This document shows positions 52,707 through 56,533 of a DNA stretch of 64,000 nucleotides, in pieces. The first letter of the stretch is position 1. Every line of letters begins with the position of its first letter. The notes beneath the pieces are model-generated. The model was not told the origin of the DNA and made no database searches. It saw nothing but the letters and a program-made list of their open reading frames with translations. The DNA comes from Salipaludibacillus daqingensis (GTDB taxonomy: Bacteria; Bacillota; Bacilli; Bacillales; Salisediminibacteriaceae), in the NCBI RefSeq assembly GCF_029891575.1, contig NZ_JARZHF010000001.1:496001-560000 (forward strand), read 5' to 3'. The translations under genes and the position numbers were made by a program.

Positions 52707-53675
52707 TTAAATCATTGTTTTAGCTGCAGTAGCCAATTTGTCATAAAGGGCTATTTCATCATCGAATATCGTTTGATCAAAAATTTCAGCAGATTCTGGG
52801 CTTGAGAAATCAAACTCAACAGATGCTTCGTATTCATAAGTTGCGTTCCCTCGGAGTCGAATGAAATATTGACCATGATCATCATTCTTTACGACACATT
52901 CCACCATTCCGCCAGGGTTTAAGACGAGGATTTTCTCATTAAACTGCGTTAAACCTAACATACAAGAAACAAGAGAAGATGCTGACATGGCTGTTCCACA
53001 AGCATTTGTTAATCCTACTCCACGTTCAAAAGTTTGCACAAAGATTCGACCTTCTCCTAAATTTTTAACGAAGCTCACATTTACGCCATTTGGTAAAATA
53101 TCCGTTAACGAATTCGCTTGTTCTCCAACATCTTTCACTTCATCTGCTTTCACTTCATCCACAACTGTTACAATATGAGGATTAGGCACACTCAAAGCAG
53201 TAAACTTCAGATGAGAAGGAAGGCCTTTAATTAGCTGGTTAATGTGGTCCTTTTGCTCAGAAACAAGGGGAATGGTTTGTGTACTTAGCGAGACAGGTTC
53301 AATGGCCACTTCATAAGTAAGAATTCCTTCAAATAATTCTTCCACATGAGCCACTTCTAAATCAGCTTTCATTGTTTCGATATTCAATTTTTCTTTTCCT
53401 AAACGTTCTGCAACATATCTAGCGACACATCTTAATCCATTCCCGCACATCTCTGCCTCTGATCCATCAGTGTTAAACATACGCATTCTCGCATCAGCAT
53501 GTTCACTCTTTTGAATAAATAATATCCCATCAGAGCCAATAATTTTATCTCTTCCTGCTAGCTCATTGGAAAGAACTACTCGTTCTTCTTCTGTGAAGTC
53601 GTATTGACCATCCATTTCATCAATAATAATAAAATCATTTCCAGAACCATGGCACTTTAAAATATCTATCTTCAT
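52707..53675 (-). CDS. dapF: Diaminopimelate epimerase
   Basis: Interconverts LL- and meso-diaminopimelate for lysine and peptidoglycan. Substrate motif CHGSGNDFIIID near residue 8; the two catalytic Cys are in MCGNGLRCVARY (near 75) and TNACGTAMSAS (near 220). ATG 53675 has AAGGAGAG 8 nt upstream; the 12 extra upstream residues are unlikely. At 322 residues it is longer than the usual 270-290, with a C-terminal extension, and the second Cys motif is GLTNACGTAM rather than GET-ACGTG, a variant form. Confidence 0.9.
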   Translation of the reverse strand: MKIDILKCHGSGNDFIIIDEMDGQYDFTEEERVVLSNELAGRDKIIGSDGILFIQKSEHADARMRMFNTDGSEAEMCGNGLRCVARYVAERLGKEKLNIETMKADLEVAHVEELFEGILTYEVAIEPVSLSTQTIPLVSEQKDHINQLIKGLPSHLKFTALSVPNPHIVTVVDEVKADEVKDVGEQANSLTDILPNGVNVSFVKNLGEGRIFVQTFERGVGLTNACGTAMSASSLVSCMLGLTQFNEKILVLNPGGMVECVVKNDDHGQYFIRLRGNATYEYEASVEFDFSSPESAEIFDQTIFDDEIALYDKLATAAKTMI

Positions 53676-53765
53676 GTTAACTTCTCTCCTTAAAAACATT
53701 ATTCTCTTCATATCCCCTTATGATAATCGGTTTTGCTTATTAAGACAACGGTTGAGATCTTGACC

Positions 53766-53960: not shown

Positions 53961-53968
53961 AAAAACAA

Positions 53969-53997
53969 AAAACAACTTTCAAAAAGAAAGTTGTTTT
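53969..53997 (-). terminator. Terminator of the HesB-like selenoprotein gene
   Basis: 12-bp perfect stem AAAACAACTTTC/GAAAGTTGTTTT, 5-nt loop, then TTTTTTGTTTTTG on the minus strand. Confidence 0.85.
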
Positions 53998-54010
53998 CCT
54001 TATATACCTA

Positions 54011-54295
54011 TTAACAGCAGTCACTCTGATTACCAGTCATGACTAGACCACCGCCATCTGGGGTTTCTTGATACTCAAGCGCCATTCCACCAGTCTGTCC
54101 ATGAATCACTTTGTCGAATGCAACTTGAATGCCGTTTACTTCTTCCACTACATCTTCATCTGTTGGCTCATCCAGAGCCAAACCTAGTTGAGGTCCGCCT
54201 CAACCCATACCTGCCATGAAGATTTTGATGTTTTTCGCACCATGTTCATTCATGATTTCTTGAATATACCCTTTTGCTTTGTCTGTAATATTCAT
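54011..54295 (-). CDS. HesB/IscA-like selenoprotein (in-frame TGA at codon 32)
   Basis: Reading from ATG 54295 (GAGGTG 5-7 nt upstream), the frame runs 95 codons to TAA 54013-54011 with a single TGA at 54202-54200. Around it the protein reads MAGMG-[TGA]-GGPQLGLALDEP. Family members have Cys there (GCGGP). The frame continues 62 sense codons with typical HesB-like sequence and ends SDCC, keeping the C-terminal cysteine pair. A SECIS-like hairpin follows the TGA. I interpret the TGA as selenocysteine. HesB-like selenoproteins are known in other bacteria. The role is probably Fe-S or redox-linked; the substrate is unknown. The alternative is a pseudogene with one nonsense mutation. Sec machinery is not in this window. 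Confidence 0.82.
54163..54181 (-). promoter_or_regulatory. Bacterial SECIS-like hairpin
   Basis: In the mRNA, UUGGCUC pairs perfectly with GAGCCAA around a 5-nt loop, UGGAU. The stem begins 18 nt and the loop 25 nt after the UGA, and G is the second loop base. Both fit the loose bacterial SECIS rules (loop 16-37 nt after UGA, G in the first two loop bases). The codons involved also encode normal family residues. Confidence 0.65.
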
Positions 54296-54366
54296 ATTTT
54301 CACCTCTATTTATTTTCAAATCAAGGCTATTTTATCAATAAAACAAAGCAAATTCAACGAGGTTGC

Positions 54367-55281
54367 TCATTCTAGACTTAATCCGTTGATAATTGTCTCA
54401 GCATTGTGACGAATCATCTTAAGGTACGTCTCCGCACCAGAGCCTTCTTGCCCAATGGCGTCTGTATACACTTCTCCAGCAATTTCAACTCCAGCATTGT
54501 CTGAAACAGTATCCATATAACGCTGATCTACGGTAGATTCAACGAATACGGCTGGTATTTCCTCGTCTTTAATAACGTCAATTAACCGATTAATTTGACC
54601 CGTTGTTCCTTCTTCATGTGAATTAATTTCCCAAATACCTTCCGTATGAAATCCATAATCTGCTCCAAAATATTTAAACGCATTTTCACTGACAATAATT
54701 GTTCGATGTTCTTCAGGAACGTCATTTACATTATCTTCAATCCATTGATCTAACTCATCTACTTCTTCTAAAAATGCATCAGCATTAGCTCGGTACTCCT
54801 CTTCACCATCCGGGTCACGGGCAACTAAGTCTTCTACTAAGTGATCTACATAATAAGTAGCATTTTTTGGACTTAACCAAGCATGAGGATCCGTTCCATC
54901 TTCTCCTTCCAGAGGTATTTCCGTAATTCCCTCTGATAAAGTAACAACTTCTGTGTCAGAAGCATTATCCACAACTTTTTCTAACCACTCTTCTAGTCCC
55001 AATCCATTGACATAAAACACTTCAGAATCGCTGACATTACGGAAATCACTCGGTACAGGCTCATATTCATGAGGTTCTTCTCCAATAGGAACGATGTAAT
55101 CTATCTCTCCTCGATCCCCCATTACTTCTCCAATAATATCTGCTAACACAGAAAAACTTGTCGTCACATATAAACCTTCTTCAACAGAAGTGTTGGATTG
55201 TTCTTGCTCATTACCATTGCCACAGCCAACTAAAACCCCACTAATAAACACGATTGAAAATAGCCATTTCCATTTGAACAT
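54367..55281 (-). CDS. Metal ABC transporter substrate-binding lipoprotein (ZnuA/MntA type), copy 1
   Basis: 304 residues. Lipoprotein signal with lipobox SGVLVGCGN (Cys 20), then a cluster A-I (TroA-like) fold. Likely metal ligands: His in EEPHEYEP near residue 68, His in DPHAWLSP near 132, Glu/Asp in the VFVESTVDQRY region near 240 and Asp in YTDAIG near 268. No His-rich loop is present, which favours Mn2+ over Zn2+. No permease or ATPase is adjacent. About two thirds identical by eye to its neighbour at 55622-56533. Own promoter with an MntR-like operator. Confidence 0.9.
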   Translation of the reverse strand: MFKWKWLFSIVFISGVLVGCGNGNEQEQSNTSVEEGLYVTTSFSVLADIIGEVMGDRGEIDYIVPIGEEPHEYEPVPSDFRNVSDSEVFYVNGLGLEEWLEKVVDNASDTEVVTLSEGITEIPLEGEDGTDPHAWLSPKNATYYVDHLVEDLVARDPDGEEEYRANADAFLEEVDELDQWIEDNVNDVPEEHRTIIVSENAFKYFGADYGFHTEGIWEINSHEEGTTGQINRLIDVIKDEEIPAVFVESTVDQRYMDTVSDNAGVEIAGEVYTDAIGQEGSGAETYLKMIRHNAETIINGLSLE

Positions 55282-55621: not shown

Positions 55622-56533
55622 TTATTCCGTTGATAAACCGTCAATAAACGTTTCCGCATTGTGTCTGAGCATTTTAAGATAACTGTCTGCTCCTGACCCT
55701 TCTTCTCCTATGGCATCGGTATATACTTCACCTGAAATAGGCACATCTGTGTTTAAAGAAATTGTCTCCATATAGCGATGATCTACCGTTGTTTCAACAA
55801 ACACTGCTGGTAATTCATTATCCTTAACCACATCAATCACACGGTTGATTTGTTGTGTTGTTCCTTCATCATGAGAATTCAGTTCCCAAATCCCTTCCGT
55901 TTGTAGACCATAATCTTCTCCAAAATACTTATAAGCATTCTCACTCACAACAATGATTCGATGATGCTCTTCTATTTTTTTAACTTCTTCTGAAATCCAT
56001 TCATCTATTTCGTTTAGTTGCTCTATATATTCTTCTGCTCTCTGTTGATATTCTTCTTTGCCCTCAGGATCTCGTGAAATAAGATCCTCTAAAATATTTT
56101 CAATATAAATGATTCCACTCCTAGGGCTCAACCATCCGTGCGGATCTTCTCCGTCTTCCCCAACTAATTGTATAGGATCGACTCCATGTGATAGTTCTAC
56201 AATAGGTGTATCGGAAGCATTTGAAACTACTCTTTCCAACCACTCCTCCAAGCCCATCCCATTAACATAAAATACATCAGCATCACTGACATTCTGGAAA
56301 TTGCTTGGTCTTGGTTCATATTCTTCAGGTCCTTGACCAATCGGCACGATATATTCGACGGTTCCTCTATCGCCTAAAATTTGATCGGTCATGTCTGCTA
56401 ATATCGAAAAACTAGTCTTTACGTACAACCCTTCATTTTCGTTTCCCTGTCCTCCTTCAGCTTCACAACCTATCATTAAAAGAATTGAAAAAATGAAACT
56501 CAAGAATAAAAAATCTATACGTACGTTTCTCAT
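55622..56533 (-). CDS. Metal ABC transporter substrate-binding lipoprotein (ZnuA/MntA type), copy 2
   Basis: 303 residues, paralogue of the 54367-55281 gene. Lipobox ending at Cys 23 (LLMIGCEAEGG). Ligand regions parallel copy 1: DPHGWLSP near residue 130, VFVETTVDHRY near 238, YTDAIG near 265. In the first ligand loop, copy 1 has EEPHEYEP but this copy has QGPEEYEP, so the usual first His ligand is replaced by Glu. That should change metal preference or affinity. Controlled by its own MntR-like operator. Confidence 0.9.
   Translation of the reverse strand: MRNVRIDFLFLSFIFSILLMIGCEAEGGQGNENEGLYVKTSFSILADMTDQILGDRGTVEYIVPIGQGPEEYEPRPSNFQNVSDADVFYVNGMGLEEWLERVVSNASDTPIVELSHGVDPIQLVGEDGEDPHGWLSPRSGIIYIENILEDLISRDPEGKEEYQQRAEEYIEQLNEIDEWISEEVKKIEEHHRIIVVSENAYKYFGEDYGLQTEGIWELNSHDEGTTQQINRVIDVVKDNELPAVFVETTVDHRYMETISLNTDVPISGEVYTDAIGEEGSGADSYLKMLRHNAETFIDGLSTE

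Follow-up and report, generated by a model that had tools for sequence, protein, structure and literature searches.

A predicted HesB-like selenoprotein with a covarying SECIS hairpin in Salipaludibacillus daqingensis and related Bacillales

A short hesB/iscA-like frame in Salipaludibacillus daqingensis is interrupted by one TGA, and the question is whether this codon marks a decaying gene or encodes selenocysteine (Sec). The locus lies in the 64,000 nucleotides analysed here (the window; G000:C1:496001-560000, where G000 is the window's own genome, a 4.58 Mb assembly in 27 contigs). An earlier note on this DNA had described an otherwise intact gene with a ribosome-binding site, a terminator and a C-terminal CC pair, and had proposed that Sec replaces a cluster-ligand cysteine. 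The features of the locus are listed below.

54011..54295, minus strand: predicted hesB-like selenoprotein gene, 94 residues, Sec at codon 32, ATG at 54295, stop TAA at 54013-54011
54200..54202, minus strand: in-frame UGA (Sec32); the same alignment column holds the GCSG cysteine in IscA-type proteins and Cys in 17 Cys homologues
54163..54181, minus strand: predicted SECIS stem-loop UUGGCUC-UGGAU-GAGCCAA, 7 bp, 25 nt from UGA to loop
54014..54019, minus strand: codons of the C-terminal Cys93-Cys94, with the Cys93 column conserved in 90% or more of the 43 Sec proteins aligned
54301..54306, minus strand: ribosome-binding site GAGGTG, read from the sequence
54357-54329, minus strand: promoter-like match from a motif scan
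53967..53999, minus strand: intrinsic terminator-like hairpin with a T run, 14 pairs

The reading frame bears out the earlier description. The protein reads MNITDKAKGYIQEIMNEHGAKNIKIFMAGMG-U-GGPQLGLALDEP...SDCC (minus strand, 54295-54011). The TGA at codon 32, flanked by MAGMG and GGPQLGLALDEP, is its sole interruption; there is no frameshift, and the terminal CC is present. Codons 32-35 give UGGP, a UxGP motif with Sec as U. Both expression signals in the earlier description, the ribosome-binding site (54306-54301) and the terminator (53999-53967), are found. Between 53600 and 54500, two terminator-like sites were detected against 0.4 expected, and six promoter-like matches, including the one listed, against 2.7 expected. 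Purifying selection persists downstream of the TGA: dN/dS after this codon is 0.063, 0.050, 0.106 and 0.121 in comparisons with relatives L025, L026, L028 and L030, and before it 0.084 (L025) and 0.122 (L030), with no computable value for L026 and L028; all values are rough because synonymous sites are near saturation.

A search for selA, selB, selD and a selC tRNA, which the earlier note had suggested, recovered all four in less than 7 kb of the window's genome.

C12:72437-73825: selA, 525 bits
C12:77026-78882: selB, 364 bits
C12:74924-75850: selD, 406 bits, with its own single in-frame TGA
C12:79143-79235: tRNA-Sec, 61.2 bits, anticodon tca (ARAGORN)

Among the 20 tRNA-Sec matches listed, this one alone exceeds the Rfam gathering score. 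The selD TGA (L016 10850-11959) stands in an SGUGCK context, read as AG-stop-GCK, and is followed by a different hairpin; the SECIS covariance model built on the HesB genes misses this site.

The interrupting codon recurs widely. In a sample of 100 genomes (own, genus, family and order) searched with P0001, and excluding weaker matches outside the listed rows, TGA-bearing frames occur in at least 44 genomes among the matches listed, and selA is above cut-off in 63. The two coincide in 42 genomes; two have the TGA copy only, 21 selA only and 35 neither (Fisher p 4e-10, uncorrected for kinship). The two genomes with a TGA copy and no selA, G033 and G034, are assemblies 80% and 76% complete, and the 21 of 63 selA genomes without a TGA copy lack one among the matches listed. 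A total of 66 loci from the listed rows gave 48 Sec ORFs, the window's included, and 17 Cys ORFs; L077 was dropped for want of a match. A single TGA occupies the aligned position in all 48 Sec ORFs, with identity to the window protein down to 33%, the 47 other loci having been chosen because the search listing showed one TGA. A scan of the named genomes gave two loci. The earlier note would have counted random stops and frameshifts in close relatives against a selenoprotein. Instead, the same TGA recurs, and no internal TAA or TAG appears in the P0001 rows among the matches listed; one Sec ORF of the 48, L053 from a 76%-complete assembly, loses its frame close to the C-terminus. Because the same TGA is present in many genomes, a base-calling error at this codon appears very unlikely.

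Sec use is also less exceptional here than the earlier note assumed when it called selenoproteins rare in Bacillaceae. This fails for the window's GTDB family: of its 35 genomes in the sample, 28 have selA above cut-off and 27 a TGA copy among the matches listed. Bacillus subtilis is not among the controls giving a selA signal, so Sec may be rare elsewhere in Bacillaceae. NCBI places Salisediminibacterium halotolerans in Bacillaceae. A 2006 survey counted three selenoproteins of three families in Bacillales (PMC1794560).

The hairpin past the UGA was assessed comparatively. Its stem begins 18 nt past the UGA, columns 22-28 pairing with 34-40 as counted from the start of the UGA. Across 47 distinct Sec rows (48 minus one duplicate), pairing is kept in 95.7% of 329 cells, and double-sided changes occur in five of the seven pairs. 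None of 500 shuffles of these rows matched the observed pairing or covariation score, one of 500 matched the number of pair types, and structures slid along the rows pair at 51.1% or less. The same columns in the 17 Cys rows are 38.7% paired, with 377 of 500 shuffles equal or better. The Leu codon nine residues past the UGA is CTG in 48/48 Sec ORFs versus 2/17 Cys ORFs. Folding of the window's 52 nt by themselves is unremarkable, being equalled or bettered by 28 of 200 shuffles (z -1.13), and their whole fold of -14.1 kcal/mol covers two hairpins together. A published bacterial SECIS model describes a 3-9 nt loop with a G within its first two positions, a 4-16 bp stem, a spacing of 16-37 nt and an energy of -7.5 kcal/mol or lower (PMC13188914, section 5); the window hairpin (loop UGGAU, 7 bp, 25 nt) agrees with it in stem, loop and spacing. 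Judged from the alignments, the hairpin is a covarying SECIS-type element specific to the Sec genes relative to their Cys homologues.

Cys homologues add a further line of evidence. Aligning them around codon 32, as had been proposed, places Cys in the U32 column in 17 ORFs. Five family genomes that lack selA and are at least 99% complete (G001, G005, G006, G014 and G022) hold Cys copies (L087, L088, L080, L085 and L082, respectively) and no TGA copy among the matches listed. The clade of the window gene comprises 29 rows, all Sec (support 90/86, below the program's star), so that the Cys homologues are paralogues on this tree, with no Sec-to-Cys swap inside the clade. Two Cys copies (L082 and L085) share a group, at support 83/65, with two Sec copies (L062 and L065), and all four lie beside arsA. 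The 65-row tree implies four label changes by parsimony. The Cys and Sec states may have a single origin on this tree, which is poorly resolved, so that changes between them are not datable.

Taken together, the window gene very probably encodes a HesB-like (A-type-carrier-like) selenoprotein whose UGA32 is decoded as Sec through a SECIS element by the cell's own machinery. SelA, SelB, SelD and tRNA-Sec of the window's genome would read UGA32, directed by the hairpin immediately downstream. The earlier proposal of Sec insertion thereby gains the support of the sel genes and tRNA-Sec, the recurrent UGA and the SECIS covariation, from which insertion in the cell is inferred. A degenerate iscA-like gene or a sequencing error, with the TGA as a random stop, is scarcely credible: a table 11 translation of the frame does hold a stop, and L053 also loses its frame near its end, but 48 ORFs with an aligned TGA, constraint past it, the covarying hairpin and the selA association all speak against decay. 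UGA read-through is known in bacteria, and a near-cognate tRNA might read the codon without selenium, or a 31-residue peptide might be the product. This is highly improbable, however, as the SECIS-type hairpin and the selA association indicate Sec, homologues carry Cys at the UGA position, and the residues past the UGA are constrained. Conservation, covariation and the selA association led to the rejection of the pseudogene, sequencing-error and near-cognate read-through explanations.

How the protein relates to described families was examined with profile models. NF038090 (53.7 of 85 bits, residues 1-85, E 2e-14) and TIGR01911 (46.9 of 66.35 bits, residues 3-84, E 3e-12) rank highest among the models of their library and cover almost the full length of the window protein, both under the curated cut-off; PF01521 (21.9 of 26.3 bits) misses its gathering score. 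The scan covered 43 of the 48 Sec proteins; L027, L034, L035 and L043 were omitted as exact or near duplicates of retained rows, and L053 for its lost frame. At E <=0.001, NF038090 matches 43/43 and TIGR01911 42/43. The best scores are 62.5 of 85 bits for NF038090 (L064, E 3.8e-17) and 61.0 of 66.35 bits for TIGR01911 (L060, E 1.2e-16), and none of the 43 reaches either curated cut-off. The likeness to TIGR01911 (HesB_rel_seleno) and NF038090 (IscA_HesB_Se) consists of a nearly whole-length profile match with Sec at UxGP, and the difference lies in the scores of all 43 proteins. Because its scores fall under both Se-linked cut-offs, the window gene is not filed inside either model. By these scores, it adjoins the curated HesB-like models, and its kind, a bacterial selenoprotein, is a known one. 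HesB-like selenoproteins have long been described in bacteria, as the earlier note stated; they were tabulated as 90 proteins from 86 organisms (PMC5029168, Table 3) and are listed with TIGR01911 and the motif UxGP (PMC13188914).

Among solved A-type Fe-S carriers, the window protein resembles 2apn (HI1723), 1nwb (AQ_1857), 1s98 and 1r94 (YfhF/IscA), though weakly (E 1e-5 to 0.01). Three of these alignments were displayed, and in each U32 occupies the column of the GCSG cysteine. The idea that the UGA replaces a cluster-ligand cysteine therefore holds for the position, and a ligand role would follow from the alignment. IscA bears a C-terminal cysteine motif; the window protein differs in having an adjacent terminal CC pair. 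A Methanococcus maripaludis HesB-like selenoprotein was identified by mutagenesis and 75Se labelling, and its disruption mutant still fixed nitrogen, its function being called unclear (PMC11097638). That protein is archaeal and is likened to the window gene by family name alone.

The SECIS covariance model recovered a further candidate in the same genome. Besides the window gene (71.1 bits), it matched G000:C7:255825-255875 (27.7 bits, E 6e-4), followed by three matches with E of at least 0.66. The C7 match opens with a TGA within a 91-residue frame.

G000:C7:255699-255971, minus strand: P0002, second IscA/HesB-like Sec candidate, 91 aa, AGGAGG site (loci L097/L102)

P0002 scores 25.2 bits against PF01521 (cut-off 26.3), with one relative at 35.4, and matches NF038090 at E 0.0018; no NCBIfam model is above cut-off. 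It matches 23 of the 100 genomes and is TGA-bearing in 22, of which 21 have selA above cut-off (the exception being G034). In the remaining genome, G022, the match is the Cys copy already found with P0001. Two of the 22 show a TAA as well, and L104, the one of these that was read, ends there. A CTCTGGA core is kept in 12/12 P0002 loci read (relatives L103-L113 included), and the SECIS model detects 11 of the 12 at E <=0.05. Of 19 sources that carry Cys, the model also matches six, and the top score among these, 22.2 bits, exceeds those of four of the 11 P0002 loci; weak scores alone are thus no proof, and the conserved TGA weighs more. L075 and L076 (in G042 and G067) are IscA-like frames of divergent sequence that contain a TGA together with a CUGGA hairpin, and L075 has a slightly better score against TIGR00049 than against NF038090. 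L005 (G000:C3:290809-291060), which matches PF01521 weakly and contains an in-frame TAA, is possibly a decayed A-type-carrier gene.

Gene neighbourhoods were compared for clues to function. The window gene has the following neighbours.

54367..55281, minus strand: PF01297 lipoprotein, upstream, a metal-binding component of ABC importers that is closest to Mn/Fe-type proteins
52707..53711, minus strand: dapF, diaminopimelate epimerase

Counting the window, 18 window-clade loci out of 29 have the PF01297 lipoprotein upstream. Elsewhere this place is taken by another gene, for instance one resembling a glycosidase or a PRC-barrel protein, and in the window ORFs similar to each of these types and to the lipoprotein follow one another (the glycosidase name and the matching are by eye). 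The lipoprotein was considered as a functional clue and set aside as weak evidence, since an inherited neighbourhood explains its recurrence. Tandem PF01297 lipoproteins lie at 54367-55281 and 55622-56533 of the window. No ABC permease or ATPase was seen by eye among the ORFs listed for 50-64 kb of the window.

Outside the window clade, arsenic genes are frequent neighbours. With linkage defined as arsA, arsD or ACR3 in the fetched flanks (tblastn E <=1e-6), 14 of 17 Cys loci are linked (L058, L078-L088, L090 and L092). Of the 19 Sec loci that fall outside the window clade, eight are linked (L060-L065, L068 and L074). None of the three genes occurs within the fetched flanks of the 29 window-clade loci. 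The window genome's own Cys paralogue (within L101, G000:C5:82000-101500) follows an ArrA-like molybdoenzyme cluster in the order hesB(Cys)-arsD-arsA; the ArrA-like match scores 1080.8 bits against a cut-off of 1600. Ars operons containing HesB-like genes are in print (PMC4562236, PMC8779447), namely orf7 of the Bacillus sp. CDB3 ars1 operon and a gene of Exiguobacterium aurantiacum. These are likened to the present genes by family name alone, and related Cys and Sec copies here likewise adjoin arsA or arsD. The excerpts of these sources mention no Sec in the CDB3 and Exiguobacterium genes, and the window-clade loci, in contrast to them, are not ars-linked. The accessible excerpts of the open-licence literature contain neither a Sec form in an ars operon nor the subfamily of the window gene.

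These contexts bear on what the selenoprotein might do. In the IscA fold, Sec32 would stand where the first ligand cysteine is otherwise found. It would form a soft-metal site, probably together with Cys93/94, and the likely role of the protein would be to bind iron, another thiophilic metal or an Fe-S cluster. Functions involving manganese, iron, metalloids or Fe-S clusters are all inferred. The protein might instead bind a metalloid, for example arsenite, working with ArsD/ArsA or alongside them, and take no part in Fe-S work. The ars-linked Cys and Sec loci, the position of the own Cys paralogue and the published ars operons point in this direction, but the lack of such genes in the fetched flanks of the window clade argues against it, and this role for the window gene is rather doubtful. 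The protein might also act in redox chemistry, with Sec as the attacking residue, and most uncharacterised selenoproteins are considered likely to have redox functions (PMC13188914); here, however, the motif is UxGP, neither UxxC nor CxxU, and Sec sits at the aligned GCSG cysteine position of IscA-type proteins, making a redox role unlikely. Returning to the soft-metal site, a wider reading is put forward tentatively, as possible and no more than that. The window gene may belong to an overlooked group of IscA-fold selenoproteins in Bacillales, two of them in the window's genome, with Sec as a soft-metal or metalloid ligand. Some Sec and Cys members might work with ArsA/ArsD in arsenite export, and P0002, with Sec in every clear match and no NCBIfam cut-off reached, might represent a second branch.

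Plasmid records illustrate how such genes are annotated. P0001 matches 19 plasmid records, five of which have no listed gene under the match. Four of the 19 were examined, two without a listed gene (both Cytobacillus) and two annotated. The Cytobacillus plasmids NZ_CP107028.1 (L114 4001-4279) and NZ_CP097350.1 (L115 2501-2779) bear a HesB-like gene with the TGA, the same SECIS hairpin and arsenic-related genes nearby, and the two annotated records hold Cys copies. The expectation that gene callers break or miss these genes is borne out in the two Cytobacillus records, with the caveat that the plasmid gene table is incomplete and omits pseudogenes, so a missing entry may hide a pseudogene call.

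The window gene illustrates the loss of such genes from annotation, and Sec use is common among the sampled genomes of its GTDB family of Bacillales. The comparative SECIS model has already yielded a further candidate gene, P0002. Relatives of either type, Cys or Sec, that neighbour genes for arsenite export would offer testable handles on the function of HesB-like selenoproteins.
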